Shown here in pieces: positions 15,201 through 58,476 of a DNA stretch of 64,000 nucleotides. The stretch comes from an uncultured Flavobacteriales bacterium. GTDB lineage: Bacteria > Bacteroidota > Bacteroidia > Flavobacteriales_D > Sanyastnellaceae. The translations under genes and the position numbers were made by a program. The stretch spans positions 1 to 64,000 of the forward strand of contig CALSMK010000006.1 of NCBI GenBank assembly GCA_943787435.1. The letters run 5' to 3'. Under the pieces are notes generated by a model. The model saw only the letters and a program-made list of their open reading frames with translations, was not told the DNA's origin and did no database searches. Numbering within the stretch: the first letter of the stretch is position 1; every line of letters starts with the position of its first letter.

Positions 15201-17696
15201 TGTGAGTTTGTGAGCTGCCGAGGCTGCACCGATCCCGACGCTGCGAATTATGATGACACTGCATTGATCGATGACAATTCATGCTTGTACGAGGGTTGCA
15301 CCAACCCAGACGCATCCAACTATGATGCTGGGGCGGACTTGAACGATGGTTCGTGTGAGTTCCCCGGGTGCACCAACCCACAAGCGTGCAACTTTGACTC
15401 TGGTGCCACCGTGGACGATGGCTCTTGTGATTTGACTTCCTGCTTTGGTTGTCTGAATTCACTCGCCTGCAACTATGACTCTTTGGCCACCATTCCCAGT
15501 GGAGATTGTGACCTGCTGAGCTGCCGTGGTTGCACAGACCCAGATGCGTTCAACTACGACTCCGATGCGACCATAGACAACAACAGCTGTTTGTTCTTGG
15601 GTTGCATTGATCCCGAAGCGGACAACTACGACCCCAATGCGGATTACAGCGATGGATCTTGCTTCTACTTGGGCTGTACAAACCAGTTTGCCTGCAACTT
15701 TGACATCGACGCTACAGTGGACGACGGTTTGTGTGACACTGCGTCGTGCTATGGATGCACCAATCCATTGGCCTGCAACTACGACAGCACGGCCACGACC
15801 TCCAATGGCTCCTGTGACTTGTTCAGCTGCCGCGGATGCACCAACCCAGATGCGGTCAACTATGACGCCACAGCGACCATCGACAATGGCAGCTGTGTTG
15901 TCGTGGGATGTCAAGATGAAAACGCCGACAACTACAACCCGGATGCCACGTACAACGACCCGTCGCTGTGCACTTATTCGGTCGTGGAAGGTTGCCTCAT
16001 TTTGCAAGCGTGCAACTACAACCCAGATGCCACTCAGTCCGATGGCAGTTGTGATTTCGATTGCTATGGCTGCACCGATCCATCGGCCAACAACTACAAT
16101 TCCACATCCACTTTGGATGATGGTTCATGCACCTATGGCATGCCTCCAGGAAACGTCATGTTCATGACCGGTTGTACGCTTCCCTTCGCCTGCAACTTCG
16201 GCGATGCAGAGAACCCATGTGAATTCGACAGTTGTGCAGGATGCCTCGAGGAAGGCGCGTGCAACTATGACCCAGAAGCCACGTTGGCCACCACATGCTT
16301 CGAGCCGCAGGATTTGTGCAATGGAGCGACCAATGTGGATTGCGACTGCAACTGCCTCAACGATGCCAACAGCAACGGAATTTGTGATGAGGAAGAGACA
16401 GGAGGTTGCACCAATCCGCTCAGCTGCAACTACAATGCACAGGCTGCGTTCGACGATGGGTCTTGCGACACCACCAGTTGTGCCGGTTGCACCGACGCCA
16501 CGGCTTGCAACTATGATGCAGAGGCCACGCTGAACGACAATTCATGTGACTACCAGACGTGCACAGGTTGCACCGATTCAACGGCTTGCAATTACGATGA
16601 GAGCGCCACAGTGGCAGATGGCAGTTGTGACTTTGCCCAAGACAATTTGGATTGCAACGGCACCTGCTTGAACGATGTGAATGAGAATGGCATTTGCGAC
16701 GAGGAAGAAACCGAAGGCTGCACCAACACATTTGCTTGCAACTTTGACCAAGACGCCACCATTGACGATGGCAGCTGTGAATCGGAAAGCTGTGCTGGTT
16801 GCACCGATAACGTGGCTTGCAATTACGACAGCGAGGCCATCATCAACGACCAAAGCTGTGAATACGAGAGTTGCTTGGGATGCACCCAGTCGGATGCGTG
16901 CAATTACAATTCAGGAGCGTCTCAAGACGATGGAAGCTGCATCTTCCCAGCCAGTGAATACTTGGACTGCAACGGCGATTGTTTGCAGGACGTGAACCAA
17001 AATGGGGTGTGTGATCCCCTCGAGGTTCCCGGCTGCACCAACAGCGACGCATGCAACTATGACTCAGAGGCCACCGATGACGATGGCAGCTGTGACTTTG
17101 TGAGTTGCCAAGGGTGTTTGGATGCCTCTGCTTGTAACTACGACGCTTTGGCCACCCAGTCTGATGGGTCTTGCGACTATGCCTCATGTGTGGGTTGCAC
17201 TGACTCGGGCGCTTGCAATTACGATCCGTCGGCCACCCAGTCCGGAGGGGGATGTACCTACCCTGTGGGTCTCCTTTACGACTGTAACGGCGAATGCGTC
17301 AATGACAGCGACGGCGACGGCCTTTGTGATGAACTCGAAGTGGAAGGATGCACCGATTCAGGGGCTTGCAACTACCAGTCGCTGGCCACCAACGACAATG
17401 GGTCATGTGAATTTTCCAGCTGCGCGGGTTGCACCATTCCTGCGGCATGCAACTATGATGCAAACGCCACCCAAGACGATGGGTCATGTGACCTTGCCAG
17501 CTGCTTGGGATGCACCTATGCCGATGCGCTCAACTACGATGCGTCGGCCACCATCGACGATGGTGGTTGCTTGTACGACTGCAACGGGGGAGGAGGCGAC
17601 AGCTGCCCAGCGGACTTGACCGGCGACGATGTGGTCGGTGTGGCTGACCTGCTGGAGTTCCTGATTTACTTCGACACGTCGTGCATCATTGATTGA
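9240..17696 (+). CDS. giant secreted modular protein P1 (2,818 aa) with Cys/Asp repeats, TIG domains and EF-hand-like tail
   Basis: Unnamed extracellular protein; function unknown, probably cell-surface or matrix. A signal peptide ends at AYGQ (residue 24). Then come a CSDPAACNYDP repeat, domain A copy 1 (9372-9938), thrombospondin-3-like DxDxDGICDD repeats to about 10520, four IPT/TIG-like Ig domains of 80 residues (10528-11485), domain A copies 2 (11704-12291) and 3 (13033-13610) separated by more DxDxDG repeats, and about 32 tandem CxxxxACNY...DDGSC repeats (14691-17580). The protein ends in a 27-residue tail (17604-17684) bounded by Cys, with an EF-hand/dockerin loop. No classical T9SS sorting domain is seen. 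Asp and Cys richness suggests a calcium- and disulfide-stabilised rod. The frame is intact over 8.5 kb. Start is ATG 9240, since the signal peptide begins there. Confidence 0.9.
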   Translation: MNQLKQWALFSLAFFQFGLMAYGQSCSDPAACNYDPSSGGPSDVCLDIETIVHTGGALDGLTTYKLYFQGSDSSDFVTAVYGNEDDPLSLTTTTEFYQHPLGGASAEAINPLLLGGFPELEFDSYVTIGLDRKAVPADGENSASLIASPNQNWISTFEPGSGAPGSDIIIDDAVGGLWFIYNGDVNGAAGTDQKVLLAQLTTDGVIAGTIHVQYFPQGGAAATVTFSLDALCEPDGNNDSCTYPEEFLDCSGNCLNDADTDLICDEVDDCVGTVDALGVCNGDCAADEDEDGICDDNDDCVGQLDACGVCNGPGPIYDCGCTAIPPTDCDCNGAQDDALGVCGGDCTADADGDGICDDVDDCVGEVDECGICNGPGATGNCGCDDIPDGDCDCDGNELDAVGECGGTCTADVDEDGICDDVDPCLGAPALVAVSPSNGLFCAGGDLIALSGSNLCDATLTVDGASVAVTSSTPSQVNFAMPPGAGSAAVVVTTPSGTSNSLTLSYAAPVLAAGSPAAGLSCVGGDLIALSGSNLCDATLTVNGASVSVTSSTPSQVNFAMPPGAGSAAVVVTTPSGTSNSLTLSYAAPVLAAGSPAAGLSCVGGDLIALSGSNLCDATLTVNGASVSVTSSTPSQVNFAMPPGAGSVDAVVITPSGTSNALTLSYAAPVLTAGSPAEGLACAGGELVALSGSNLCDATLTVDGASVPVTSSTPSQVNFAMPSGSGSVVAVVSTPSGTSNALTLEYGAGVCSDPTACNFDGAAACGGGECLYEDVIGECGGDCSADDNDNGICDDVEGSGCADEAACNYDPFAEPVDPEPITDYCLLTEAVAVHDSGDLAGMTTYQVSIQTMNEADFVTSVSGNIAAPTMVQTTTSFFQHILGGATPQNVNPLLLPNFAELAFDSWVTIGLDGPADAVAGENAASIVQSPNQSWSLGFDPGGGSPGGDIVIDDEVGGVWYILNGDANGFPDENGRVLLGQFTTSGTLSGNMQVQVFPNGDNENFLLLDLPLGMGVGCPSGGGDNCLYDDALGECGGECTADADEDGICDDVDPCVGTIDACGICNGPGAIYDCGCEGYADGACDCDGNQEDALGVCGGDCAADADNDGICDNVDDCVGQLDECGICNGPGATGDCGCDDIVEGTCDCDGNVLDAIGECGGDCTADVDGDGICDNVDDCVGDYDACGVCNGPGAIYDCECEDLPDGDCDCDGNQEDAIGVCGGDCAADVNDNGICDDIEEAGCDDPEACNYDENSLPYSPPAVDEGYCVELRTIQEHEEGELDGFTTYQVLLHTEHPTDFVTSVYGNSVEPLAIQTTTSFYQHFLGGQTPENVNPLLLPVYPNLAFDSWITIGLDGPANASFGENAASTVQSPDQAWVTLFEPGGGAAGGDIVMDDEVGGVWYILNGDVNGLPAPDGTVLLGQFTTDGDLSGNINIQVFPQGDNTDFLKLNLPIGGNCVADGTNPACTYPPGEDQDCDGTCINDADEDGICDEQEVAGCQDQNACNYNEDATDDDGSCLQLDVCGECGGDGIPVGDCDCDGNQLDALDVCGGDCTADEDSDGICDDVDPCVGELDACGVCNGPGEVYECGCADIPAGDCDCDGNQDDAVGVCGGDCTADLDEDGICDDVDPCVGALDACGICNGPGEVYDCGCSDIPAGDCDCDGNQDDAVGVCGGDCAADVDLDGICDDVDPCVGSLDACGVCNGPGAVYDCGCADIPAGDCDCDGSQEDAIGACGGDCQADVDADGICDDVDPCVGELDACGVCNGPGAIYDCGCADIPDGDCDCDGNQLDAVGVCGGDCLGDSDGDGVCDTDEVPGCTNPASCNYDPNATDENGSCEVEDALGVCGGDCPADLNGDGVCDTDNVFGCTEPSACNYNASADVNNGSCEFFSCLGCTDEDAVNYSPTATQNDGSCLFDGCTNSAADNYDPNADLDDGSCEIYGCTDATACNYDPLANANDGSCDFSCYGCINLSACNFDDNATVDDGSCEFVSCRGCTDPDAANYDDTALIDDNSCLYEGCTNPDASNYDAGADLNDGSCEFPGCTNPQACNFDSGATVDDGSCDLTSCFGCLNSLACNYDSLATIPSGDCDLLSCRGCTDPDAFNYDSDATIDNNSCLFLGCIDPEADNYDPNADYSDGSCFYLGCTNQFACNFDIDATVDDGLCDTASCYGCTNPLACNYDSTATTSNGSCDLFSCRGCTNPDAVNYDATATIDNGSCVVVGCQDENADNYNPDATYNDPSLCTYSVVEGCLILQACNYNPDATQSDGSCDFDCYGCTDPSANNYNSTSTLDDGSCTYGMPPGNVMFMTGCTLPFACNFGDAENPCEFDSCAGCLEEGACNYDPEATLATTCFEPQDLCNGATNVDCDCNCLNDANSNGICDEEETGGCTNPLSCNYNAQAAFDDGSCDTTSCAGCTDATACNYDAEATLNDNSCDYQTCTGCTDSTACNYDESATVADGSCDFAQDNLDCNGTCLNDVNENGICDEEETEGCTNTFACNFDQDATIDDGSCESESCAGCTDNVACNYDSEAIINDQSCEYESCLGCTQSDACNYNSGASQDDGSCIFPASEYLDCNGDCLQDVNQNGVCDPLEVPGCTNSDACNYDSEATDDDGSCDFVSCQGCLDASACNYDALATQSDGSCDYASCVGCTDSGACNYDPSATQSGGGCTYPVGLLYDCNGECVNDSDGDGLCDELEVEGCTDSGACNYQSLATNDNGSCEFSSCAGCTIPAACNYDANATQDDGSCDLASCLGCTYADALNYDASATIDDGGCLYDCNGGGGDSCPADLTGDDVVGVADLLEFLIYFDTSCIID
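10662..11170 (+). repeat. 269-bp perfect direct repeat, offset 240 bp, in the TIG array of P1
   Basis: Bases 10662-10930 and 10902-11170 are identical, so the two copies overlap with a 240-base period that equals one TIG domain. The flanking first and fourth TIG copies are clearly diverged. This points to a recent unit duplication or gene conversion between the middle domains. A collapsed or expanded assembly is possible. Confidence 0.85.
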
Positions 17697-17722
17697 TCCA
17701 GGCACCAACCTCTGCCTCAAAC

Positions 17723-17752
17723 AAAAAAGGCCGTCCCTTGGGGCGGCCTTTT
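17723..17752. terminator. bidirectional intrinsic terminator between P1 and the lectin gene
   Basis: AAAAAGGCCG...CGGCCTTTT forms a strong GC-rich stem with A runs on one side and T runs on the other. It lies between two convergent genes (P1 stop 17696, lectin stop 17772), so it can terminate transcription in both directions. Confidence 0.8.
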
Positions 17753-17771
17753 CTGTGGGGGCAAGTCTCGC

Positions 17772-19832
17772 TTATTCCCGAATCAATTGCAATGAACCGG
17801 TGGCCGAGCCAGACTGGCTGTCTCCACAAGTGGACGTGTAGTCCACCACGTACCAATAGGTTCCCGAGGTCAAAGGCGATCCTCCAGCACCATTGCCATA
17901 CCAACGGATGGGCGTGCCCGAAGCGAATCCGTTTCCTGCATTGGTGAAGACCACCGTGCCCCAACGGTTGTAAACACGCATTGCATAGTTGGTGAGCACC
18001 GACAGGGCTTCTACGTCGGGCACATCGGCGAGGAACGGATACCAGCTGTCATTCTTGCCATCGTTGTTGGCGGTCAAAATGTTGGGGAAGGTGATGGAGC
18101 TGATGTCCACGCCAAAGTCTTCCCCGGTTTCGGCCACCACAAGCAGGCTGTCGGCACAACCCGTTTCGGCCCACTCAACCAACATTTGATACGTTCCCGC
18201 TGCCTGAATGATGGGCCCGAAAGACCCACTTGAAGGGGACACCCCTTGGGTTGTGCCATTGTCGGCATTGATCCAAGACACCGAGGGCGTGAGGCCGGGC
18301 GGGCCAAATGGCGCGTATTCCACCACGCCCGCGCCCAACACGGGCTGACCTGGATTCAGGCAGGTCAAAGGATCCACCGAGCCTGGCAGCAGCTCCGGTT
18401 CGGCGCTGGCGTCCAACACATCTACGTTGTAGACCGAAGTGCAGCCATTCACGGGGTTGGTGACCGTGGCCACATAGGTCCCTTCCTCCAAGGCCTCCAC
18501 GCTTGGGCCTTGCCCGAGGATTTCTCCATTGGGTGTGGACCACACGACCTCGGCTCCTGGAGACGATAGGTCGATGGCTTCCAAGACCACCGTGGGGTCA
18601 TTGCACGTCAAGTAGGCCTGGTCGGGGAAAGTTCCAGTGTAGGAGGCGGTGTCGATGGCCACTTGAAAAGGAGCGGAAGCTTCACAAAGCCCGTCCTGAA
18701 AAGAGAGCAGCAATTCGTAACTGCCAGGAACTTCCACCGTGGCGTTGCCTCCCAAGGACTGGATGGCTCCGGTTTCTGCAATCCAAGTTTGGGTCAAAGG
18801 GCCAGGAAAATTGGACTGGGCCTGCAAGGTGAGCAGGTCATTGTCACAAGTGAGGTCTTCCAGACCCAAGACATCGGCGGTCATTTCTTCAACGTTGAGC
18901 TGAATGGTGTCCACCACATCCACGCCGCAGTTGTCTTCATAGGAGATCACATACACCAAGGGTTCGGTGAGGCCACCGGGTGGAGACACAACAGGAGACG
19001 CAATGGAAGGGTCGTTCAAGTAGTCTGAGGGCATCCATGTGGCCGCCCCGCTTGGACTGGGGACGTTCAACTGAAGGTTGGCCCCTGGACAGACGTAGCT
19101 CTCTGCTGCGCTGCCCAAGATGTTCTCCTCCAAGCACACCGTGTGAACATTGTTGGCGCCGCCAGTGCCCGAGGTGAATCCAAAATAGACTTGGTTTTGG
19201 CCTTGAAAAATGTCATCGATCAAGTTGACGAAGCCCTCCAGTCTGAGTTCACAATCAAAGTAGACCTGCACCAATTGCGTTTCTGGGTCCCAGGTCACCC
19301 GTCCTTGGTGGTCTTCTCCGTCTTCGATGTTGGGGTCAAAGGCGTCGGCTTGCACGGGACCGGCAATGGCCGAGGGCAGCAGGTGATTCACGCTACCGTT
19401 GGACACCATGGCAATGTGGTCGCCAATGGGGTCACCGAAGTCGGCGTTCTGCCAAGTGTCGAATTCCACGGCAAAGGCCGGCTGGAAATCTTCTCCGAGA
19501 AAACCGATGCCGCCGCCACTTTCTCCAATCACATCCACGCCCACAGTCTGCAGAACGAAGCAGATTCCGTCGGCGCCATTGCCGTCGTTGTTGCCCAAGT
19601 TTAGAATGAACTGAAGGTCCAAGGGCAGGCTCAAATCCACTTGGTCGGCATACCACACACTGCCCGTTTGTGTGTTGATGGCGGGCGTGATCTGGTAGCA
19701 ATCGTCTCCGGTGGCTTGGGCAGCACCGTTGAGGTAATAGACGGGGTCACCCTGTGACAGCGCATTAACATGCGACAGTCCGAAGAAGGCGAGCAAAACA
19801 AAAAGATTGATGGAGGAGTGACTCATGGCCAT
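17772..19832 (-). CDS. secreted L-type lectin with Ig-like regions and gliding/T9SS type B C-terminal domain
   Basis: Probable surface carbohydrate-binding protein exported by T9SS. After a signal peptide (MAMSHSSINLFVLLAF...) comes an L-type lectin fold of about 220 residues, with NLGNNDGNGADGICFVLQ, the acidic EFDTWQN strand and YFGFTSGTGG. Several Ig/PKD-like segments rich in Pro, Gly and Thr follow. The last ~90 residues match the CHU_C/gliding-motility C-terminal domain: FPNILTANNDGKNDSW, YNRWGTVVF, and a GTYWYVV strand before the end. Start 19832 is chosen for the signal peptide; ATGs at 19871 and 19865 are alternatives. The gene follows the TonB-dependent receptor on the same strand, so a shared function in glycan capture is possible but unproven. 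Confidence 0.88.
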   Translation of the reverse strand: MAMSHSSINLFVLLAFFGLSHVNALSQGDPVYYLNGAAQATGDDCYQITPAINTQTGSVWYADQVDLSLPLDLQFILNLGNNDGNGADGICFVLQTVGVDVIGESGGGIGFLGEDFQPAFAVEFDTWQNADFGDPIGDHIAMVSNGSVNHLLPSAIAGPVQADAFDPNIEDGEDHQGRVTWDPETQLVQVYFDCELRLEGFVNLIDDIFQGQNQVYFGFTSGTGGANNVHTVCLEENILGSAAESYVCPGANLQLNVPSPSGAATWMPSDYLNDPSIASPVVSPPGGLTEPLVYVISYEDNCGVDVVDTIQLNVEEMTADVLGLEDLTCDNDLLTLQAQSNFPGPLTQTWIAETGAIQSLGGNATVEVPGSYELLLSFQDGLCEASAPFQVAIDTASYTGTFPDQAYLTCNDPTVVLEAIDLSSPGAEVVWSTPNGEILGQGPSVEALEEGTYVATVTNPVNGCTSVYNVDVLDASAEPELLPGSVDPLTCLNPGQPVLGAGVVEYAPFGPPGLTPSVSWINADNGTTQGVSPSSGSFGPIIQAAGTYQMLVEWAETGCADSLLVVAETGEDFGVDISSITFPNILTANNDGKNDSWYPFLADVPDVEALSVLTNYAMRVYNRWGTVVFTNAGNGFASGTPIRWYGNGAGGSPLTSGTYWYVVDYTSTCGDSQSGSATGSLQLIRE

Positions 19833-19906
19833 GCATAAAGCTATCCTCACCACCCTTGGCTTCATGCCCATTCTAAAACCGGTCCCAACCGACCACCGTG
19901 GAAATC

Positions 19907-23177: not shown

Positions 23178-23217
23178 GTGCCAAAGGTAACCGGAGAGCC
23201 GAGCCCTCCGTGGGAAT

Positions 23218-24816: not shown

Positions 24817-24829
24817 GGCGTCGGCAAAA

Positions 24830-26745: not shown

Positions 26746-26776
26746 GGCATCAAATGTACCGGCCAGATCGGATGGA

Positions 26777-28357: not shown

Positions 28358-28398
28358 GTCCGAAAATAACAACGATGAAGTCTGTGGCGCCAAAAGCG

Positions 28399-28809: not shown

Positions 28810-28855
28810 GCCATCAATTTATCAAAAAGTCACATCAAAACCAAATAATAATAGA

Positions 28856-30148
28856 TTAATTGGAATCTAAAGCCTCGAAACCAATGATGCGATCCGTGCC
28901 GTCTGAAGCCGGCGCATGGACCATGATCTGGTAGCGATTGGAGGTGCCATTGTGCTCGCCCTCCAAGGTGAAATCAGGCTCAGATGGCAGGGTGGCGATG
29001 TACCGGTAATCATACCAGCCTTGCTTGAGTTGGGTGTCGAGGAAGAAGGCATTCCTTTCGGCATCAAAGGACATTTTGAAGGCGGGGTCTATCGCCCAAC
29101 CCGTCATGGCCCCAAAAAGGTAGACTTCGGGAACAGCGCCGAAGTTCTGATGCTCCATGGAAAACCGAACATCGAGGTATTCGGAGGTCAGCTCCACATC
29201 ATCAAATCGGTCATTGTGGACGGTAAAGCTTCCTTTCAGATCCGGTCGAGCGCCGAGCATCTTGAACCGTCGCGAGGCATCTTGAGCCAGCTCAATCCGC
29301 ACAGCGCCTCCTTCTTCGCGCCGCTCCACAATTCGTTCAATCCCCGGAGCGAGGTAGGACAAGGATTTGAGGTCTGCAGAACGCCAGCGGTCACCTCCTG
29401 AAAAAGTGAGGCCCGGGTCCTGATCAAAGATCAAGACGTCTCCTCGCCATTGACCGGCTTCAATTCGGTGGGCCGCCCATGGCCAGGATCCATTTTGAAG
29501 GATGCTGATTTGCACGTCGCGCATGGGGTTGGTCCAGCGGTGGCCAGAGGGCAGTTCGACCGAGACTTCCAGCCGCTGATGGGTGGCGACTTGAGGGGCC
29601 AGCAATGGCCTTCTAAAAGCAATGTTGACTTCGGAGGCCTTTTCATACACGACAAATCGACGAAGGATGACCACATTGTCGGGCTCGCCCGCCTCGTGTA
29701 CGATGAGGAGATAATTGCCACTGATGGACGGGGCCAGGTTCGCAGAGGGAATGGTGGCCCGAGCATGAGCGAAGGGAACGACCCCACCAAAGCTGTTGTC
29801 GATGTTGCCGATGGGGTCGGGGGCCCACCCTTCGATGAAATCCCAATCCGTGAGGTCAGAGAACTCCGTCCAGTCACTGTTGCAATGCACCATGGTCCAT
29901 TCGTGATCGGGCCAGTCTCCAGTCAAGTCGTCATACTTCAAAACCAGTTTGGCTTGCCCCCCGAGCTCCAAAAAGGGTCCGCCCAAGGGGGCGCCTTCCG
30001 GATGCAGGCGAACCGATTTGATGTGCGGAGCGGTGAAGGCGACAGGTACGTTCTGTCCCAAACCAATGTGGGATGGCGCACAGAAGAACAGGACCAAAAG
30101 AAGGAACCCGGCCAATGGATGCAAGGGAGAAGTCAAGGGAAGAAGCAC
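28856..30148 (-). CDS. type IX secretion system Plug protein (DUF5103)
   Basis: Periplasmic protein believed to close the SprA translocon pore of T9SS from the periplasmic side (Plug, known from Flavobacterium johnsoniae). The 430-residue protein has a signal peptide (LAGFLLLVLFFCAPSHIGLGQ). A DUF5103/T9SS plug first domain follows (LVLKYDDLTGDWPDHEWTMV ... CNSDWTEFSDLTDWDFIEG). The C-terminal part has GAMTGWAIDPAFKM and a GWYDYRYI strand. The start is GTG at 30148. It is transcribed away from nqrA. Its presence agrees with the T9SS-type sorting domains elsewhere in the window. The family is clear; the plug role is by homology. Confidence 0.85.
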   Translation of the reverse strand: MLLPLTSPLHPLAGFLLLVLFFCAPSHIGLGQNVPVAFTAPHIKSVRLHPEGAPLGGPFLELGGQAKLVLKYDDLTGDWPDHEWTMVHCNSDWTEFSDLTDWDFIEGWAPDPIGNIDNSFGGVVPFAHARATIPSANLAPSISGNYLLIVHEAGEPDNVVILRRFVVYEKASEVNIAFRRPLLAPQVATHQRLEVSVELPSGHRWTNPMRDVQISILQNGSWPWAAHRIEAGQWRGDVLIFDQDPGLTFSGGDRWRSADLKSLSYLAPGIERIVERREEGGAVRIELAQDASRRFKMLGARPDLKGSFTVHNDRFDDVELTSEYLDVRFSMEHQNFGAVPEVYLFGAMTGWAIDPAFKMSFDAERNAFFLDTQLKQGWYDYRYIATLPSEPDFTLEGEHNGTSNRYQIMVHAPASDGTDRIIGFEALDSN

Positions 30149-30245
30149 GGGTCAAAAGTACCCCTGCCAAGGCTCTGCACCCCGCCTTGTGGACAATGGT
30201 CATACAGCCATGCCCCAGCATGGGCAACGATGGGATTTCAGGATG

Positions 30246-30263: not shown

Positions 30264-30280
30264 CCGCACGTACATCAGAC

Positions 30281-37839: not shown

Positions 37840-39546
37840 ATGATTCCTTCCATGCACCCTACCATACGTTTCATTCTCGCCTTTTGCACGTTGATTCTGA
37901 CATCTGGTGCATGGGCCCAAGAATGTGATTGTCCTCCAGTTGCAGACCGCACAGTGGTGGACCTGACAGACAATGAAGGATTGGGAACGGGAACCAGGAC
38001 ACTTCACTGCGACTCCCTCTATGTCTTGAATGGATTTGTGTACGTGAATGAGGGCGATGTCCTGTCCATGGAACCCGGAACGGTCATTCAGGCCAAACCC
38101 GGTCAGGGAGAAATGGCCAGCTGTTTGATTGTTGCACGCGGCGGACAAATCATGGCCGACGGCACTTCAGATTGCCCCATCATTTTCACCTATGAAGGTG
38201 ATCCTGTCAATGGCTCTACCCCTTACAACACGAATGGATTGTGGGGTGGCGTGGTCATCAATGGATACGGCATCCTCAATACCTATGATGGAGATGATGC
38301 AGCCGAAGGCATCATGGATGTGAGCGGTCAAAACCGAGACATTTTTGGAGGACTGGACAATTCAGAGTCCAGCGGCATCATGCGGCACGTTTCCATTCGG
38401 CATGGCGGAAGTGAGATGCCCAACCCACCGGTGAACTTTCAGAATGTGATCAACGGTGATGAAACCAACGGTTTGAGCCTAAACGGTGTGGGGTCGGGCA
38501 CTGTGTTTGAACACATCGAGGTGGTGTCCACTTTGGATGACGGACTCCAAATCATGGGAGGCAGTGCCAACTTGAAATACGTGGCCGTGGCTTTTTCGAC
38601 CGAGGACAATTTTGAATACGACTTGGGCTGGGTGGGAGACATGCAATACTTCTTTTCGCTCATGGACCAAGTGGAGCTCTCGGGAGAACATGGATTTGAC
38701 TTGGAAGGAGACGACTTTGAGTTTCAAGACGTCACATTGAGCTTTCTGCCATACACCAACCCTCAAATCGCAAACTTCACTTCGTTTGGACACGAAGAAG
38801 CGACGGCCGTGAGGTGGCACAACGGGGGAGGAGGCCGCCTGTACAACGGCGTCTTTCAGAATTGGGATTTCGGCATTGACTTTGAAGATGCCGATCCATG
38901 CGACGCATACGAGTTGTTCTTGTTCGGTGAGTTGGAGATTCACAACAACCGGTTTTGGAATGTCGGAGACAGCTTGGCCTTGGACACCATGATCCTTTAC
39001 GAAGGAGGCGTGTGGAATGGAAACATTCAAATCCAAGACCACTTTGTGGCCAACAACAACCAAGGCTCAGATTTGGGCTTGGATGATTCCTTTGAAGCCT
39101 TGGCCGGTTTCATCACTTCGGGTGTGAATCCTTTTCCAACTGTGTCCGATTCTGTGCCAGCGCAGCATCAACCTGTGGGCACCTTTTTTGATCCAGTCGA
39201 TTATGTCGGTGCATTTGAACCCGGCGGGACCAATTGGTTAGAGGGCAGCTACCTGGACCAAATGGGGATGTTCTATCCTGGAGACATTCCAGGTTGCATG
39301 TACGAATGGGCATGCAACTTCGATGCTTCAGCCAATACCGATGATGGCACTTGCGACATTTTCGCTTGTGGAGGATGCACCTATGAGGCCGCCAGCAACT
39401 ACAGCGCAGCTGCCATCCGTGACGATGGAAGCTGCACGGGCTTTGCTGGAAGCACAGGTTGTGCAACGGACGTGGATGAAGACGGAACTGTGGGCGTGAA
39501 TGACCTCCTTGAGGTTCTCTCTGTCTTCGGTTCCTCCTGCGACTGA
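37840..39546 (+). CDS. secreted beta-helix-type protein P2 with Cys repeats and EF-hand-like tail
   Basis: 568-residue exported protein of unknown role. A signal peptide (RFILAFCTLILTSGAWAQ) precedes a region with VYVNEGDVLSMEPGTVIQ and LIVARGGQIMADGTSDCPII, followed by repeated short strands with parallel beta-helix character (SSGIMRHVSIRHGGSE ... EHIEVVSTLDDGLQIMGGSA). This is a known Bacteroidota surface-protein type. Near the C-terminus are two Cys repeats (EWACNFDASANTDDGTC; AASNYSAAAIRDDGSC). It ends with the same 27-residue Cys-bounded EF-hand-like tail as P1 and P3 (39460-39540). Start is ATG 37840; 37852 is possible. Frame intact. Confidence 0.88.
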   Translation: MIPSMHPTIRFILAFCTLILTSGAWAQECDCPPVADRTVVDLTDNEGLGTGTRTLHCDSLYVLNGFVYVNEGDVLSMEPGTVIQAKPGQGEMASCLIVARGGQIMADGTSDCPIIFTYEGDPVNGSTPYNTNGLWGGVVINGYGILNTYDGDDAAEGIMDVSGQNRDIFGGLDNSESSGIMRHVSIRHGGSEMPNPPVNFQNVINGDETNGLSLNGVGSGTVFEHIEVVSTLDDGLQIMGGSANLKYVAVAFSTEDNFEYDLGWVGDMQYFFSLMDQVELSGEHGFDLEGDDFEFQDVTLSFLPYTNPQIANFTSFGHEEATAVRWHNGGGGRLYNGVFQNWDFGIDFEDADPCDAYELFLFGELEIHNNRFWNVGDSLALDTMILYEGGVWNGNIQIQDHFVANNNQGSDLGLDDSFEALAGFITSGVNPFPTVSDSVPAQHQPVGTFFDPVDYVGAFEPGGTNWLEGSYLDQMGMFYPGDIPGCMYEWACNFDASANTDDGTCDIFACGGCTYEAASNYSAAAIRDDGSCTGFAGSTGCATDVDEDGTVGVNDLLEVLSVFGSSCD

Positions 39547-43207: not shown

Positions 43208-43231
43208 AAACACGAAAGAAAGGCATCGGTG

Positions 43232-45234: not shown

Positions 45235-45237
45235 CGT

Positions 45238-46127: not shown

Positions 46128-46138
46128 TCAAGGGGGGG

Positions 46139-47514: not shown

Positions 47515-47627
47515 GAGTTGACAGCAAAGGTAGTCCGCTCTTCGTGCAGGTAGAATTGGCGGGACCTACAGCCTTTTGTAGTCGACGGAATAGCAAATTT
47601 ATTTCGACGAACAGGTGGAAACATCGA

Positions 47628-47645
47628 CTAAATTGTGTAATTTAG
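47628..47645 (+). promoter_or_regulatory. inverted repeat overlapping a -7-like element upstream of P3
   Basis: CTAAATT-GTGT-AATTTAG is a perfect seven-base inverted repeat. Its right half contains TAATTTAG, one mismatch from TAnnTTTG. It ends 15 bases before the P3 ATG at 47660 and lies in the 145-base divergent gap shared with ffh. It could be an operator or the promoter itself. Confidence 0.4.
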
Positions 47646-47659
47646 ATGTGCTTAACTGC

Positions 47660-50600
47660 ATGAACATGCGCTTTCAACTGTACTCCCTCGCTTGTTTGCT
47701 CGTCTCCTTCTTAGGAACAGCATCCGCCCAGAACTCCTGTTATGATGTCACTGGTGACACATTGGGATTCCACCTTTCCGTGGAAACCCATGCCACCGAT
47801 GTCGTAGGCGGAATGACAACATACCGCGTCTACCTGTCCACCCCGGGCACGGATGACTTTGTATCAGCCTGCATTGGTGATGCTTCGACGCCTTTGTTCC
47901 TCAACACCACGACGTCCTTTTACCAGGACCCGTTGGGCGGAACGACGGCGGCCTCCATCAACCCACTGTACTATGGCCCATTCCCCGATGCGGCTTACGA
48001 CAGCTGGGTCACCATTGGCATTGACCAGCAGCCTGTGCTCGCCGATGGCCAAACCGATGTTTCGGTATTGGTCGATCCGAACGTGACTTCTTGGGAAGTC
48101 CCGTTCAGTGCAGGTGGCGATGTAGACATCAGCTCTGCCATTGGCGGTGGCTGGTACATCCTGCCCAGCAGCGCAAACGGAGTGGCCGGCACAGACCAAA
48201 AGGTCTTGTTGGCACAATTGACCACAGATGGGGAGATCAGTGGACAGTTGTACATCCAGATTTTCCCGCAAGGGGACCAATCGCAGTTGATCGAAAACAC
48301 CTTCAGCTTTCAGCAGACCACCTGCGGTGTTGCAGGATGCATGGACAGCAATGCTTGCAACTATGACGATACGGCCACATCTGACGATGGCTCTTGCAGC
48401 TATGCCGCGGCCAACTTTGATTGCAATGGCGACTGCCTGACCACCGAGACCACCTTCAACGTGGACATGGACTGCAGCGGAGAGACGTTCTCTTCCGTGC
48501 ACGTCACGGGTCCCTGGTGCGGATGGTGCGGTGCTGAGGCATACAATACCCTCACCGACGAAGACGGCGATGGCACGTACACGGTTTCCGTGTGCATTCC
48601 TGCCGGCGACGTGGAGTACAAGTACATGATCGACAACTGGGCGTGCTCAAGAGGACCTGGCATCGACGACATGCCCAAGCCGGTGGCGCGTGCGCTCCGG
48701 TCACGGATGTCTGCCACCTATGCCAACCGCGTGGCGGCTTCGGGTCAGCACCACGAGCAGACACCTACGGCAGCTGCTCTGACTTGCGCAGAGCAATTGG
48801 CCTTGCAAACAGTAACGGTGTCATTCGCCATCGACATGAGCAGTTCCGATTACCCCAATGCGGACTACGACAACGTGGTGATCAACGGTTCTTGGAACGG
48901 TTGGAATGGATGGGGAGTGCCCTTGAGCGATGACGATCAAGACAATGTCTTCACTGGCACCTTGGACTTGGACGTGAACTATGGGAATTTTGAATTTGTG
49001 GTGGCTGTGACCGGACCTGCAGACGGCTATGGCGGTTGGGGTCAAGTCATCAACGCTCCGACGGGCGGCGCTTGCTCTGTAGGCAGCCCAGCCAACTACA
49101 TTTTGACGGTGGGTGCTGACGACCTCTCTTTCGCAGCCTGCGCTGGATTGTGCGATGAGACTTGCCCAACAGGGAACACCAGGTTGCGTGGATCAAGGCG
49201 CCAACAACTACAGTTCTGATGCGACTTACGACGATGGCACATGTCTTTACAGCATGAGCTTCTCATTGGATTTGAGCCAAACAGACATGGTCGCACAGCC
49301 GCACATCTCCGGCCAGTTCAATGGTTGGAATGGCACAAGCAATCCCATGACCGATGACAACCTAGACGGCGTCTGGGAAGTCACTGTTGAGATGCTTTCG
49401 GGCGCTCAGGAATACAAATTCACGGCCAACGACTGGGCCACGAGTGAGTCATTTGATGGAAGTGAGTCTTGCACGACGGCTCCTGGAGAATACGTGAACC
49501 GTGTCACCACAGTTTCTGCATCGGCCTCTTTGCCAACGGTCTGCTGGAACAGCTGTTCAGAATGCCCTCAAGAAGGATGCACCACTGAATCGGCTTGCAA
49601 CTACACGTCTTTGGCTGGTTATGATGACGGCAGCTGCTATTTCTGCTGTGCCGATTTGAACAGCAATGTGGCAGGATATGGATTGGAGCAAGAGATCGTG
49701 GCATGGGATGGAATTCCTGGAATGCGCACGTATCGTTTTTACATCACGACGCCCAATGCCGACGACGTGGTGAGCGCTGTGAGTGGCGACAGCGATGTCC
49801 CAACCTTGTTGAACACAACGACTTCATTTTATCAAGACCCGCTGGGCGGCGCATTCCCCAACGGAATCAATCCAGCCACGTACGAAGCGTTCCCAACTGT
49901 CCAATATGACAGCTGGGTGACCATTGGTATCGATCAGGCTCCAGACTTGGGAGCCAACGAAGCTGCGGTGAGCTTCGCTGAAGCTGAAAGCTGGATCACA
50001 GAATTTGAGGCAGGCCAAAACTTGGCCATCGATGGATTCTTCGGAGGAGCTTGGTTCTCAACGGCCAACAACGCCAACGGTTTGGCTGGAGACGACAAGA
50101 AGGTTCTTCTCGCTCAGTTGACCACCGACGGCGACTTGAGCGGACAGCTCTTTGTTCAGGTCCTTCCCCATGGAACGTCCGACGGCTTGGGTGAATTGGT
50201 GACCTTGTCATTCGGTCCTTACGTGGATTCAGAGGCACCCAGTTTTGTAGACTTCCCCGCCGATGTCACTGTGGGTTGTAACGACCCGCTGCCAACCGCC
50301 GATGTTCAGGCCAGTGACGCGTGTTCAGATTGGACCGTGACCATGGAAGAAGCCACATCAGGCGATGCTTGCTTGACCACGGTTGTTCGCACTTACACGG
50401 CAACCGACGGGGCGGGCAACAGCACCAGCTCTTCATGGACCATTTCCGTGGTCGACGACGCTGCACCTTCTTTTGATGGCCCCGCAGATTTCACAGCCAA
50501 TTGCGGCGATGATCTCTCACCAGCTTCTGTTGGAGAGGTGAGCAATGCCAGCGATTGCAGTTCTTTTAACGTGACCTACAACGACGTGGACATGTTCAAC

Positions 50601-53600
50601 ACTGACCCTTGTATTGGTCAGATGATTGCACGCACATGGAGGGCCACAGATGAATGTGGAAATGAAGCCATCGACATTCAAATCATCACGGTTTTGGATG
50701 CAGCTGCACCATCCATTGTATCGGTGCCAGCAGACACCACCATTTCGTGTGATGCTGCCGTGCCTACATCTGAGATTCAAGCCACAGACGATTGTGGTTC
50801 AGTGACCACGTCCCAATCTGATGCGACCACGGACGGCGAATGTGCCGGAGGGTCCACCATCCTTCGCACGTTTGTGGCTGTTGACCCTTGTGGAAACAGC
50901 ACAGAATATGTTCAAACCATTTCTGTGGTGGACACAGTGGCCCCCGTGTTTACGAGTGTGCCAGCTGACCTGACGGTGAGCGTTTATGACGACTTGCCCT
51001 CCGAGGAGGCTGTGGCCACAGACAATTGCAGCAGTGCAACGGTATTGTCTTCTGATCAGACCGATGGAAGCGCCAACGATTATGCGGTGGTGACCCGCAC
51101 ATTCACGGCGGTTGATGCCTGCGGAAACTCTTCCACAGCCACACAGACCATCACGGTTCTTGAGTTGCTCGGATGCACAGACGCTTTGGCGTGCAACTAC
51201 AACGACGCGGCCACTGCCGATGACGGAAGTTGTGACTTCTGTTCTTGCAACGGCGTTTATCCCGCAACAGGTCCATACAACCTCGAGGTGGAAACCGTGG
51301 AGGGAGGCATTGACGGACAGACCACATACCAGGTTTACGTAACCCTGCAAAACGCAACAGACTTTGTGAGTGCATTGACAGGTGGACTCAGAGCACCCTT
51401 CATTCGTGCGCTCCAGTACATCGTTTTACCAGAACCCCTTGGGTTCCGCGAACGCACATGGCATCAACCCACTTTTGTATTCTTCATTCCCAGACCTTCA
51501 ATATGACAGCTGGGTAACCATTGGTCTCACAGGTGCAGCTGACCTCGCTCAAGGCGAAGGTGAGGTGACTGTGGTCGAGGGAGAATCTTGGGTGGCATCT
51601 TTCGAAGATGGAAACGACATTGAGTTGGGAGGTGAGTTTGGTGGAGGTTGGTTCTCCTTGAATGGATCGGCCAATGGACAAGCCGGCGATGACCTTCGTG
51701 TCTTGGTTGGACAGTTCACCACAGATGGTGTATTCAGCGGACAGCTTTACGTTCAAGTGTTCCCAGAAGGTGACGGTGAGAACATGGTCTTCCAGACCAT
51801 GCGTTGGGGAGAGCCACAATGCGGCTGCCAATTGGAAGACGCATGTAACTATGACGCGACGACCGCCTATACAGACAACGAGAACTGCTTGTACCCAGCA
51901 GACCTTTATGGAGCGAGTCACTTTGATTGCGACGGCGTCTGTTTGAACGACTCCGACGAAGACGGTGTATGCGACGAAGACGAAGTTCCCGGATGTACCG
52001 ATGAAGCCGGTTGCAACTATTCCTCTCTCGCCACGGACGACGATGGGTCATGCACCTATCCTGATTACGGATACTTCTGCGATGGCTCTTGCATCAGCGA
52101 TGAGGACTTTGACGGCATTTGCGACTTGAACGAAGTCCAAGGATGTAACCTCGACAACGCTTGCAACTTCAATCCAGCAGCCACAGAAAATGATGGCAGC
52201 TGCACATTTGATTGCTACGGATGTACTTCTGAGTCAGCAGCCAACTACGATGCAGATGCACTGTTGGATGACGGTTCATGTTTGTTCGGAGGGTGCACCG
52301 ACAATGGGGCGTCTAACTATTCTGCAGATGCAGACTTCAACAACGGTTCTTGCATCTATCTCGGATGCACCAACCCCATTGCGTGTAACTACACGGTAGG
52401 CGCCAACCAAGACGATGGCTCTTGCGACCTCGTTTCCTGTGGTGGATGCACCAACGAAATTGCCTGTAACTATGATGCAGACGCCCTGCTCAATGATGGT
52501 TCTTGCGAATTCTTCAGTTGCCGTGGATGTACGGATTCATCAGCATTCAACTACGCCGATGATTCAACGGTGACCGTGGACGATGGTTCATGTATTTACG
52601 GAGGATGCAACGATGACTCTGCTGCCAACTATGATGGCACTGTGGACTTCAATGACGGTTCTTGTGAGTACCAGGGTTGCACCGACAACACGGCTTGCAA
52701 CTTTGATCTGAACGCCAATGTTTCCGACGGTTCTTGTGAGTTCACAAGCTGCGCGGGTTGCATGATCACCTTCGCTTGTAACTACGATCCTGAAGCGACG
52801 TTGCAAGACGACAGCCAGTGTGACTTCTATGCTTGCTGTGGTGACCCAGCCGCAGACAACTATGAAGTTGGCGTGGCGGATTTCTTGACCTATGGTTGCA
52901 TCTACGGGGGTTCTGCTCCTTCTGTTCAACTCACAGGTTGTGACTTGTCCTTTGCCTGTAACTACGGCGACCCAGACAACGATTGTGAATACAACTCTTG
53001 TTCTGGATGCACCGAGCCAGGAGCCTGCAACTATGATGCAGACGCCACCATTCCCGTCACTTGCCTCTATCCAGAGGACATCTATGGAACCGATACGGTG
53101 GACTGCGATGGCAACTGCAACAATGACATGAATGAAAATGGCCAGTGCGACGAGAACGAAGTGTCCGGTTGCACCGATCCATTGGCTTGCAACTACTCCG
53201 ACGATGCCACATTGGACGACGGATCATGTGACACGGCGAGCTGCTCGGGTTGTACCGACGCCAGCGCCTGTAACTACGATGCTTCTGCCTCTGTAAACGA
53301 CGGGTCTTGTGACTATGCCGCCTGCTTTGGTTGCACCGATTCAGCGGCTTGCAACTACGATGAGACAGCCAGCAATGACGATGGAGGTTGCGCTTATCCA
53401 GCCAGCTCCTTTGTGGACTGCAACGGAGACTGCCTGAACGATGGAAACAGCAATGGCATTTGCGATGAGCAAGAGACATTGGGTTGTACCGACGTGAATG
53501 CGTGCAACTTTGATTCAGACGCCACCTTTAGCGATGGCAGCTGTGAGTACACCACGTGCACAGGTTGCACCACGTCTTCGGCTTGTAACTATGATGCGAC

Positions 53601-56600
53601 TGCATCCATCAATGATGGCAGCTGTGAGTTCACGAGCTGCACCGGTTGCACCACGTCTACGGCCTGCAACTACGATGCTGAGGCTACATCCGATGATGGA
53701 AGCTGCACATATCCAGAACCCGAATACGATTGCGATGGCAACTGCCTTGTTGATTCGGACGGAGATGGCATCTGTGATGCTTTTGACGGCAACTATGACG
53801 GGTGTATGGATGCCCTGGCTTGTAACTACGACGCCTTCGCAGACAGCGATGACGGCTCGTGTGACTTCTGCAGCTGTTCTGGCTTCACGTCTGACTTGCC
53901 AGGATATGGCGTGGAGATTGAAGAGTACGCCACCAATGGGGTGCCCGGATACACGACATACCGTGTCTACATCACCACACCCAACACCACTGACCAAGTC
54001 AGTGCGGTGACCGGTGTGACCAGCAACCCCTTGTTCCTTGAGACCACGGGAGACTTTTATCAGCACCCGAATGGCGGCGTGTTCCCGAATGGCATCAATC
54101 CGGTTCTGTTCGACTTCTTCGCAGGAATCGAATTCGACAGTTGGGTCACCATTGGTATCGATGGCCCACCGTCAAGCGCAGACGGCGAAGGAAACGTTCA
54201 AGGACTTCCCGAGCCTGAGCCATGGAGCTCCGTATTTGAATCAGGCAACGGATTCATGATCGATGACGTCATTGGATCGGGTTGGTTTGTCAACCCCGAT
54301 GTCACCAATGGCATCGCTGGGGACGACAGCAAGGTTTTGTTGGCTCAATTGACGACCAACGGAGAATTGACTGGAGAGTTCTACGTCCAGGTGTTCCCAG
54401 AGGGTGACAACATCAACCAAGAGCGTGTGACGTTGACCTTTGGCGGAAGCCAGTGCGGTTGCACCGACATCACGGCTTGTAACTTCTCTCCAAGTGCGGT
54501 CATCGATGATGAGAGCTGCTACTATCCCCAGTTTGGATATGACTGTGGCGACTTGTGCCTCTTTGATGACGAAGCACCTCAGTTTACAGAAATCCCTGAA
54601 GACACAGACGTGAGCTGCTCAGCGGACATCACAGTGGTGATGCCTGCGGCGACGGACAACTGTGATCAGAACTTGACCTTCAGCTATACCGATGAAATCA
54701 TGGATGGCCCTTGTGGTGAGACCTATGACATCTTGCGTAGCTACTTCGTCACAGACGACTTTGGCCTGTCCGACACGGTGTCTCATGTGATCCACGTGGT
54801 GGATGATCAAGCGCCAGTATTCACCAACGTTCCGGCTGACGGAACCATCGAGTGTGGTGAAGATTTGCCGAATGCTCAGCCCATTGCGGTGGACAATTGC
54901 AATGGCGTGACCATCACCCATTCCGATGAAATGGTCACCGAGAGTTGCGGTGGAACAGGGACGTTGGTTCGCACCTGGTCTGCTGAGGATGCCTGCGGAA
55001 ATGTCAGCACGGCCACCACGACTTACACGATCGAAGACAACCAGTCGCCTGAGATCACCAACATGCCTGCTGACACCACGCTCAGCTGCTCGGATGATTA
55101 CAGCTTCCCCATGCCTGCATCATCAGATGCCTGCAGTGAGGTTGAATTGACCGAAGAGGTGAGCTTCCAGGACGGTGCTTGTGCCAATTCATATACCATG
55201 ATCCGCACATTCACAGCCATTGATGCTTGCGGCAACTTCAGTCAATCGGTTCAGGCCGTGACCTTCGTCGACAATACGGCTCCAACCTTTGCGGGTGTTC
55301 CTGCCGACCTCACTCTGGAATGCGGAGACGCGCTTCCTGAACATGAAGTGAGTGCCACGGATGATTGCGAAGGAAGTGTGGCGGTGTCCGTCAGCGATGT
55401 GGAGAACACCCTTAGCGACTGCGCTTATGAAGTGGTGAGAACCTTCACGGCAACAGACGCCTGTGGCAACTCATCTTCGGATCAGTGGACCATCACCTAT
55501 GAAGACACCACTGCACCGACCTTCACTGCACCTTCCGATGTCACATTGGATTGTTCGGCCGACACCACGCCGGCGGGTTCAGGAGATGTCACAGACGCTT
55601 ACGATGCGTGTGATGCCTCACCTGTTGTGACGCATTCCGATGTCATTTCTGAGGGGCAGTATTCCTTGGACGGCATGACAGCAGACATTCGTGTTGAGCT
55701 TCGCTTGAACAACCTCTCTTCTTTCCCACGTGTGCTGGAGGTCATCGGTGCCACCATTGGCGCGGGTGCAGAGCTTGATTTGGACGATGAGGTGTCCAAC
55801 CCATTCAACTTGCGCGGTGCAGTTGGCGTGGACATGAGTGGCAGCAGCATTGACTTGTCCATCCTGGATGTGGTCGGCTCTGAGAGCTATGACTTCATCG
55901 AAGTTCGCATCAGCAACTTGACAGGAGCAGGCATTGTTGGCGCATCTCTGGATGTCCAGAACCTGTTCGTTGACAATGACGCGGTGGAGTTCAGTCAATC
56001 CACGACCGATCAAGAGGTAATCTTCTCTTGGTCAGAGGTGGACGGGGACATGTTGTCCATCCAAGAAGGAGGAACGGCTTCAGCTACGGTGTTGAATGCA
56101 GACAACTGCTTGGCCAACAACGTCATCACGCGTACTTGGACAGTGACCGATGCCTGTGGAAACAGCACCAGCAGCGACCAAGTGATCACGTTGCAAGACC
56201 TGACCGCTCCATCGTTCGACTTTACTCCCGCAGACCAGGACTTGGACTGCAGCGCAGAATATGCCTTCGAAATGGCTACGGCCACCGACGCCTGTTCAGA
56301 TGTAGAGGTGACATTCTCAGACTCTGAATCCTTCCCATGTGAGGGAAGCAGGGTCATCGAACGGACGTTCACGGCGACGGACGTGTGTGGCAACATCAGC
56401 ACCCATGTTCAAACCATCTCTTTCAACGACACCACGTCACCGGTGTTCACTTCTACGCCTGAAGACTTGGCGCTGGAATGTGGGGATGAGTTGCCCGTGA
56501 CGACTGCTGAAGTGGAAGACAACTGTGGCACACCATCGCTGAGCCATTCAGACTCTACCATCCAGGGAAGCTGCATCGGTGAGTATACCGTTGAGCGCAC

Positions 56601-58476
56601 CTTCTTGGCCCAAGACGGATGTGGCAATGAATCCACATATGTTCAGACCATCTCTTACAGCGACAACACCGCTCCAGAGGTGACCATGATGCCGAGCGAC
56701 ACAACTTATGTAATTGTTCAGGGGGCCAGCATTCCTGTGGAGTGGCCAGAAGCCAATGATGTCTGCAGCGAGGTCAGCATGACGTTCTTGGATGTCTGCT
56801 CGGCGCAGTCCTTTGGAGGCTATTCTGCCGCCAGGACATTCACTCTGACCGACGACTGTGGCAATGTCACGGAAGTCTTCCAGCAAATTGAAGTGCTGTA
56901 CATCCTTGGATGTGACGATCCAGAGGCGGTCAACTTTAACCCTGAAGCATTGGGCGGAGACGGCACGTGCCTCTATGAGGGTTGCACCAACGAAGAAGCC
57001 TTCAACTACAACCCACTCGCCGACATTGACGATGGCAGTTGCTTGGTCGCAGATGTTGAAGGTTGTATGGATGCCAGTGCATGCAACTTCCTTGCCGTGG
57101 CCAACATTGAAGATGGTTCATGCGATTACTGCAGCTGTCTCAGTGCACCCGAGATCAATGGGTACAGCCTTGAGCTCGAGCCTGTTGCTGTGGACGGTGT
57201 GCCGGGAATGACCACCTACAGGATGTATGTCACCATGGTGAACCCCACGGACGTTCTGTCCAGTGTGGTGGGTGAAACTGGATTGGAGACCTACATCAAC
57301 ACCTCAACTTCATTCTATCAGGATCCATTCGGAGGCGCATTGGGTCAGTCGATCAACCCTGTGCTCTATGGAATCTCTCCACAGTTGGAATACGACAGCT
57401 GGGTCACCATTGGTTTGGATCAGGCTCCGAACCAAAGCGCAGGAGAAATTGAGGTGACTGCCGTGGAAAGCCAAGATGCCAACTGGATTTCACCTTTCGA
57501 AGCGGGAGGCAACTTGACCATTGATGGTGACTTCGGTGGTGTTTGGTTCACGCTGAATGGTGCCACCAATGCTGTAGCCGGTGACGAACTGCGCGTGTTG
57601 TTGGGTCAATTCACCACAGGTGGATCGATCAGCGGACAAATCTCATTGCAGGTGTTCCCCGAGGGCAACGGAGATGAAGACTTGATCATGACCTTCCCGA
57701 TTGGCAACAGCTCTTGCGGTTGCACCGATGTTGAAGCTTGCAACTATTCAGACTTGGCCACCAATGACGATGGAAGTTGCTCTTACCCTGGAGTGCTGGA
57801 CTGTGACGGTGAGACTTGTGTGAACGACAGCGACCAAGATGGAATTTGCGACGAGTTGGAGGTTCCTGGTTGTGACGACGTCACGGCCATTAACTACCAA
57901 GATGCAGCATCGGACAACGACGGTTCATGCTTGTACTTGGGTTGCATGGATTCAAATGCGGACAACTACGATGCTGGAGCCAACGTGGAGGGCGACTGCA
58001 CGTATCCTGCTGAAGGTTGCACCGACAGTGAGGCAGCCAACTATGATGACAGCGCGTTGATTGACGACGGTTCATGTCTCTATGTGGGATGTATGGATCC
58101 AGAGGCAGACAACTATGACTCTGCTGCAAACGTGGAAGGCTTCTGTGAATACCCAGCTGAAGGTTGCACCGACAGTGAGGCAGCCAACTTCAGCGACAGT
58201 GCGTTGATTGATGACGGCTCATGCTTGTACCCAGGTTGTACAGATTCAACAGCGTTGAACTACGACCCTGAAGCCAACTTCGATTCCGGTTGTATCCTTC
58301 CGATGGAGGGCTGCACGGACCCTATGGCTGAGAACTACAATGCCCTGGCCAACACAAACGATGGCACGTGTGAATACACACCTCCATGTCCTGGTGATTT
58401 GAACGGAGACGGAACCATCAACATCAATGACCTGCTGGACTTCTTCCAGATTTATGGTCAGGATTGCCCGGAGTAA
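47660..58476 (+). CDS. giant secreted modular protein P3 (about 3,600 aa) with HYR domains, Cys repeats and EF-hand-like tail; two frameshifts
   Basis: Unnamed extracellular protein, probably cell surface. A signal peptide (MRFQLYSLACLLVSFLGTASAQ) is followed by domain A copy 1 (47734-48330) and two segments resembling starch/glycogen-binding beta-sandwiches (48440-49130; 49250-49550, with QFNGWNGTSNPM). Then come domain A copy 2, four HYR domains, copy 3, 21 Cys repeats, copy 4, eight more HYR domains (54570-56900), copy 5 and a last Cys-repeat block. The end is the 27-residue EF-hand-like tail (58387-58467). One extra base at 49172-49174 and another near 51381-51385 break the frame; a compensated shift is likely at 48650-48790. 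Correcting them gives one continuous modular protein. ATG 47660 fits the signal peptide. Confidence 0.85.

Follow-up and report, generated by a model that had tools for sequence, protein, structure and literature searches.

The first 64,000 nucleotides (forward strand) of contig CALSMK010000006.1, from an uncultured Flavobacteriales bacterium of the family Sanyastnellaceae (GenBank assembly GCA_943787435.1), are here called the window. They encode three proteins, P1, P2 and P3, which end in a similar tail of 27 residues running from one cysteine to another. A preliminary description of this DNA interpreted the tail as an EF-hand or dockerin-like module that serves as a sorting or anchoring tag. 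The present analysis relates the tail to the GC-type dockerins, follows it through the source assembly (2.12 Mb, 34 contigs, 78.5% complete) and other genomes, and weighs the functions that it may have.

The locus and its three tails

Read in frame, the tail of P1 is CPADLTGDDVVGVADLLEFLIYFDTSC, followed by IID to the end of the protein, that of P2 is CATDVDEDGTVGVNDLLEVLSVFGSSC, followed by D, and that of P3 is CPGDLNGDGTININDLLDFFQIYGQDC, followed by PE (Table 1). The three align without gaps, with seven invariant columns (C1, D4, D8, D15, L16, L17 and C27), and D4, residue 6, D8 and D15 correspond to positions 1, 3, 5 and 12 of a putative calcium loop. Coordinates, frame, residues and alignment are all as first described. 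A hidden Markov model (HMM) built from 33 tails of other proteins of the same genome was run on the 1,622 six-frame reading frames of the window; it picks out P2 (E 4.7e-12), P1 (9.9e-11) and P3 (5.1e-7) alone, the next match having an E-value of 2.2, and the best match on 20 residue-shuffled copies was 0.055. Chance resemblance is thereby ruled out, and the tails of P1, P2 and P3 are confirmed as real. None of the three proteins matches the models for the usual sorting domains of the type IX secretion system (T9SS), be it type A (PF18962, TIGR04183) or type B (PF13585, TIGR04131), which agrees with the preliminary description.

P1 and P3 have in common an uncharacterised domain of about 167 residues, named TTYR, which is present in three copies in P1 and in three in the P3 frame, while the passenger of P2 matches no Pfam family above cut-off. 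The description of the proteins as secreted holds for P1, where a signal peptide is seen by eye and was missed by the heuristic used, and for P2, where the heuristic called it. It is not borne out for P3, the frame of which opens within a domain, beside an apparent frameshift near 51.38 kb, with the true start upstream. The TTYR domains at 47774, 49692, 53911 and 57169 span neighbouring frames, which suggests that the P3 gene probably starts near 47.6 kb (47615-58476 in the window); the apparent frameshifts near 49.15 and 51.38 kb could be assembly errors or real.

Table 1. Tail-bearing genes of the window and the features discussed in the text.
Feature	Positions	Strand	Remarks
P1	9234..17696	+	signal peptide, three TTYR domains, IPT/TIG domains, many GC-type Cys repeats, single-loop tail
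TTYR of P1, copy 1	9381..9899	+	further copies 11721-12239, 13053-13565
GCTY repeat ahead of P1 tail	17508..17570	+	
P1 tail, Cys1 to Cys27	17604..17684	+	in-frame reading, alignment, hold-out HMM
P2	37831..39546	+	signal peptide (...GAWA/Q), two GC repeats, single-loop tail
GCTY repeat ahead of P2 tail	39373..39435	+	
P2 tail, Cys1 to Cys27	39460..39540	+	in-frame reading, alignment, hold-out HMM
P3 frame	51382..58476	+	TTYR and HYR_4C domains, many GC repeats, single-loop tail
TTYR of P3	53911..54411	+	another copy 57169-57672; neighbouring frames 47774-48280, 49692-50177
Final GC repeat, GCTD form, ahead of P3 tail	58309..58371	+	
P3 tail, Cys1 to Cys27	58387..58467	+	in-frame reading, alignment, hold-out HMM

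T9SS domains had also been noted in neighbouring genes. The lectin gene, which lies convergent with the P1 gene (17772-19997, minus strand), encodes a legume-lectin domain and a type B domain (CHU_C) above cut-off, while the serine hydrolase has no T9SS match in NCBIfam, Pfam not having been scanned for it. A T9SS plug protein (NF052315, 254 bits) is encoded at 28856-30148 on the minus strand.

Relation to GC-type dockerins

The NCBIfam family dockerin_GC (NF041540, “GC-type dockerin”) spans 67 model positions with two Cys-bounded calcium units, and its cut-off is 29 bits. Two-loop tails match it at E<=0.01 in 63 of 65 cases (66 sequences less locus L274), the best at 8.7e-11, as do 21 of 49 one-loop tails taken together with their GCTY repeat. 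In this genome, 4 of the 24 places listed for NF041540 pass its cut-off. One profile retrieves one-loop and two-loop forms alike, and 31 of 48 single units score nearer to loop 2 than to loop 1, which is not decisive for a reading of the single unit as purely the second half of the dockerin.

The AlphaFold2 model of the two-loop form has a predicted local distance difference test (pLDDT) of 95.5 and a predicted template-modelling score (pTM) of 0.77. Its best Foldseek match in the PDB is the type II dockerin 2y3n_B from Bacteroides cellulosolvens (E 3.5e-4, TM 0.86, root-mean-square deviation 1.1, 36% identity), which stands alone at E<=0.001 among the 38 matches listed; the next 28 of these are, as we take them from their titles, dockerin, cohesin-dockerin or scaffoldin entries. 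The two-loop sequence profile also matches 2y3n_B, at E 2.1e-9. By family model and predicted structure, the two-loop form is a GC-type dockerin with a dockerin fold, in keeping with the EF-hand or dockerin-like character first described. The tails of the window are related to NF041540 yet stay below the family score, and are therefore best called half GC-type dockerins, related to the family and by score not members of it. Against the Pfam dockerin family PF00404 (cut-off 22.9 bits), P3 scores 17.2 bits and P1 and P2 have no match.

The tail class in the source genome

A profile of the three window tails gives 74 matches in 54 open frames of this genome, of which 53 were read (C20:30323 was left out). 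The module is C-terminal in 42 frames, lies elsewhere in 10, and is a 35-residue fragment in one, so that internal placement is far from being as frequent as the terminal placement proposed at the outset. The 42 terminal tails divide by eye into 24 one-unit and 18 two-unit forms, and by pattern into 27 and 15, three degenerate first units being missed by the pattern. The notion of a stand-alone single-loop tag does not survive this, 18 of the 42 having two loops in a form already held by NCBIfam as dockerin_GC. In the 37 frames that fit the strict pattern, 0-3 residues stand behind the last Cys. Of the 24 one-unit frames, 18 by pattern and 19 by eye carry a GC-type Cys repeat no more than 110 residues from the end.

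Nine of the ten non-terminal modules stand behind a signal-peptide-like N-terminus, mostly without cysteines, and the tenth lies inside a GH3-like protein with a type A domain at its end. Seven loci (L102, L103, L104, L105, L106, L097 and L100) show a mostly Cys-less loop behind such a start, often of the form PYNPDxNxDxxIGxxDLLxxLxxFG, with bodies that appear by eye FISUMP-like or adhesin-like. Locus L055 of the same genome (C6:135800-137900) has a signal-peptide-like start, a Cys-bounded single loop and a lamin tail domain (PF00932, 4e-16), a layout that recalls the anchor proposed for the planctosome discussed below.

The cysteines occur in pairs. Among 74 distinct two-unit C-termini, which were collected without requiring Cys, 66 have both a Cys before loop 1 and a Cys after loop 2, eight have neither, and none has one alone (Fisher 7e-11, a value inflated by relatedness because all eight Cys-less cases are planctomycete loci). 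In the linker of the same 74, cysteines number two in 58 cases, three in 3 and zero in 13, and a single one never occurs. In the one-unit C-termini called by pattern, 85 of 89 have Cys on both sides. From this pairing, the first and last Cys probably form an end-to-end disulfide staple, and a second disulfide in the linker would fit the two-unit form. In known dockerins the ends are held by a non-covalent clasp, in the portion of the source consulted (PMC5934362).

Pfam families in 20 of the tail frames include GH81, GH16, M43, reprolysin, Endonuclease I, arylsulfotransferase and FG-GAP/ASPIC, together with sortilin-type proteins, a lysyl oxidase and a phosphodiesterase with LamG; six of the 20 match no Pfam family. 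The type A domain (PF18962) has 44 matches in this genome at E<=0.001. For 15 of the 37 tail frames the same genome holds a homologue ending in type A (E<=1e-5, Cys-rich stretches masked), some of these alignments being short (34-92 residues). The clearest exchange is a pair of phosphodiesterases with 53% identity over 472 residues, one copy ending in the tail and the other in type A. In 60 relatives the phosphodiesterase has 18 matches, 15 with a readable C-terminus, of which eight carry a loop tail, in one case with 46 further residues after its last Cys, and seven a type A-like end, as judged by eye. Repeated exchange within this family was considered and rejected, since the tree needs one change (support 59/81, 62% of bootstraps). 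The loop pattern occurs in 2 of the 44 type A frames, once as the internal loop of the GH3 protein and once as an apparent chance match. That unrelated exported proteins share the tail as an alternative to T9SS sorting domains, as first described, is thus upheld, homologous passengers carrying either. The signal-peptide heuristic, which errs in both directions, gives a positive call for 23 of the 37 frames with a tail and for 31 of the 44 with a type A domain, with Gln at +1 in 14 and 16, respectively.

Distribution

A profile (A2) of 36 of the 37 strict-pattern tails, the near-copy L060 being omitted, was searched at E<=0.001 over 60 genomes of the order. All 37 genomes of the window's family match, with 1 to at least 106 matches, as do 2 of the 23 from other families, with one match each. 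Among 395 genomes sampled over the phylum there are four with a match at E<=1e-4, and two of the four belong to the window's family. In the window's genus (17 genomes), type A matches number 24-61 and loops 43 to at least 106, while 22 of the 23 out-of-family genomes have 64 to at least 78 type A matches (G047 has none) and 0-1 loops.

A pattern scan with five tails (A4) found at least 78 loci across named genomes. By title, those listed comprise 49 Flavobacteriales or Crocinitomicaceae, 23 Planctomycetota (including Phycisphaerae), two other Bacteroidetes, two “Chryseobacterium gleum”, one Euryarchaeota and one Ignavibacteria. Of the 49 loci in the first of these groups 46 have the module at the C-terminus, as have 22 of the 23 titled Planctomycetota. 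The tails in metagenome-assembled genomes labelled Chryseobacterium gleum and Euryarchaeota (L213, L224, L177) are perhaps misbinned or mislabelled.

Searches for SprA, the T9SS translocon, and for cohesins covered 29 chosen genomes, 16 of the family and 13 tail-bearing Planctomycetota, eight of the latter titled Phycisphaerae or Phycisphaerales. SprA is present in 16 of 16 family genomes and in 0 of 13 Planctomycetota, the completeness of which is not given. The tail is therefore not tied to the T9SS. The better of two cohesin matches, L274 (433-2403, minus strand, genome G025), combines four cohesin-like repeats with a two-loop GC-type dockerin at its C-terminus and is scaffoldin-like, with the best solved cohesin at E 0.014. 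As a general scaffoldin it was discarded, a profile of its repeats having found nothing else in 9,948 frames of at least 60 residues, not even the weaker match L275.

Possible function of the tail

The reading that we favour, and to which we give an even chance, is that the half-dockerin tail is a tag for docking and not a signal to the T9SS. The tail is one putative calcium loop with a helix, and a disulfide from Cys1 to Cys27 probably ties its two ends together; in this genome it occurs either as one unit, mostly adjoining the GCTY Cys repeat, or as a full two-unit dockerin. Its carriers are enzymes exported through Sec and giant repeat proteins, in which it nearly always takes the place of a type A domain. 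With calcium bound, it would dock them to a protein receptor, either on the cell surface itself or on a scaffold that the T9SS displays there. Speaking for this reading are the family matches and the dockerin fold of the two-loop form, the retrieval of both forms by one profile, the C-terminal placement, the paired cysteines, the range of passengers and their exchange with type A, the lack of SprA in Planctomycetota with the module, and the precedents described below.

Several results weigh against docking. The tails of the window fall below the NF041540 cut-off (P1 17.7 and P3 15.7 bits, P2 no match). The model of the one-loop form with its GCTY repeat is locally good (pLDDT 86.0) and poor in overall arrangement (pTM 0.43), and its dockerin matches in the PDB are two weak ones (E 7.0 and 9.6), so that partner binding by a half-dockerin stays conjecture. 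The Pfam cohesin PF00963 was found in 2 of the 29 genomes, one match being over the cut-off and both in the family. It was not found in this genome, where 78.5% completeness and divergent cohesins may account for it; the preliminary description had held that cohesin partners in the genome would speak against a sorting or anchoring tag, and in this respect it stands. The TTYR domain, considered below as a receptor, has no match in NCBIfam and a best PDB chain at E 0.031; compared by hhalign with the four L274 repeats it reaches a probability of 0.1, and a relation to cohesins was rejected. Finally, we know of no route besides the T9SS by which so many soluble proteins cross the outer membrane in Bacteroidota, and for this reason the export of tailed proteins is left unexplained.

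The tail might instead be a new class of T9SS sorting signal, the T9SS reading the half-dockerin, with or without GCTY, as it reads type A, exporting the protein and perhaps removing the tail. This fits the presence of SprA in every family genome examined, the shared position at the extreme C-terminus, the occurrence of tail and type A on homologous passengers, their near-mutual exclusion, and the higher type A counts of out-of-family genomes with hardly any loops. It is nonetheless improbable, as the module stands at the same place in Planctomycetota without SprA, has a dockerin fold, occurs in nine N-terminal copies in this genome and is scarcely found elsewhere in the phylum sample. Of the “sorting or anchoring tag” first suggested, T9SS-type sorting is weakened by the SprA-less Planctomycetota and the N-terminal copies.

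A somewhat less probable role is that of a stabilising C-terminal cap without a partner, in which calcium and a disulfide would guard the ends of exported proteins against unfolding and proteases. The paired cysteines, the giant disulfide-rich carriers P1 and P3 and the rarity of Pfam cohesins agree with a cap, while some carriers, among them the phosphodiesterase with LamG, are enzymes that lack Cys repeats, and sequence conservation that extends past the loop (L17, L20 and mostly F-G) together with the family-wide expansion would suit a binding surface better. Least probable of all is calcium-mediated binding to a surface glycan or lipopolysaccharide that keeps enzymes in the cell's own slime, which would suit polysaccharide enzymes among the carriers (GH81, GH16) and the lack of a known protein partner, but no carbohydrate-binding module appears in the two-loop fold matches listed or in the best 60 of 227 sequence matches.

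The TTYR domain as a candidate receptor

If the tail does dock, TTYR is a candidate for its receptor. Besides the copies in P1 and P3, a single frame of 3,822 residues in a relative holds at least five. Pfam gave two different families, one member each, at E 0.045 and 0.11, neither convincing. A TTYR search (E<=1e-5) covered 53 genomes: 27 of the 37 of the family, 13 of the 23 of other families and 13 Planctomycetota. The domain is found in 27 of 27, 2 of 13 and 11 of 13 genomes of these groups, respectively, the Planctomycetota all being tail-bearing. Of the 13 genomes from other families, the two with TTYR are also the two that have a tail (Fisher 0.013). Over the 40 genomes of the order covered by both searches, 29 have tail and TTYR, 11 have neither and none has one only. 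The counts correlate with a Spearman coefficient of 0.94 over these 40 genomes and 0.82 with one genome per genus (21 family genera), tail counts in the richest genomes being lower bounds.

TTYR is about equally frequent on frames with a tail (6 of 37) and on those with a type A domain (7 of 44), and is not the mark of a single class; its presence on both kinds of protein could be compatible with a scaffold found on both sides. A cohesin-free docking in T9SS bacteria may be imagined, in which TTYR is the receptor of the tail, type A proteins with TTYR anchor the complex to the cell, tailed TTYR giants such as P1 and P3 form adaptor scaffolds, and tailed enzymes plug in; we regard this scheme as rather unlikely. 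The counts disagree in genome G039 (13 TTYR, one tail), and two tail-bearing Planctomycetota lack TTYR, both of which weigh against it. Shared ancestry or habitat could also produce the co-occurrence. With related genomes and counts that do not always agree, TTYR as receptor is a lead, not proof.

Comparison with known systems

The two-loop form is already catalogued in NCBIfam, and the one-unit half-dockerin tail is a new variant. A literature search that included “GC-type dockerin” showed no title on such a tail class among those listed, although print may still hold one, and PMC11557425 added nothing to the picture. If the docking reading is right, the family addresses about as many exported proteins by a dockerin-type tail (42) as by type A (44), with hardly any recognisable cohesin. 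The docking partner of GC-type dockerins and the outer-membrane crossing of tail-bearing proteins would then become testable, and a natural half-dockerin would be informative for minimal docking tags.

The type A domain, 75 positions long and described as a beta-sandwich in the portion of the source consulted (PMC4804311), resembles the tail in its place at the extreme C-terminus, its kinds of passenger and its count in this genome; it has no sequence relation to the tail, which is also found without SprA. NF041540 shares the Cys-bounded calcium loops and the C-terminal place (42 of 53 frames here), but the window tails have one unit instead of two, score below its cut-off and mostly adjoin a GCTY repeat. 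The two-loop form has the fold of the B. cellulosolvens type II dockerin, in which residues 7-62 of 71, the aligned stretch, hold no Cys and whose partner is a cohesin, a domain rare in tail-bearing genomes.

In the portions of the two accounts consulted, “Candidatus Stygibacter” (Cloacimonadota) has enzymes that carry a dockerin at the C-terminus, and a scaffoldin of 3,755 residues that combines cohesins with a surface-attaching C-terminal domain (PMC8542988), and the “planctosome” proposed for freshwater Planctomycetes consists of dockerin-bound peptidases, including reprolysin, an HYR-bearing adaptor and a lamin-tail anchor (PMC6461901). Both complexes were inferred with recognisable cohesins, whereas cohesins are nearly absent here. 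With both, the system shares dockerin-tagged enzymes alongside giant HYR adaptors or a surface-attached scaffoldin, and with the planctosome in particular the HYR domains of P3, reprolysin among the tail carriers and the lamin-tail protein with a loop, L055.

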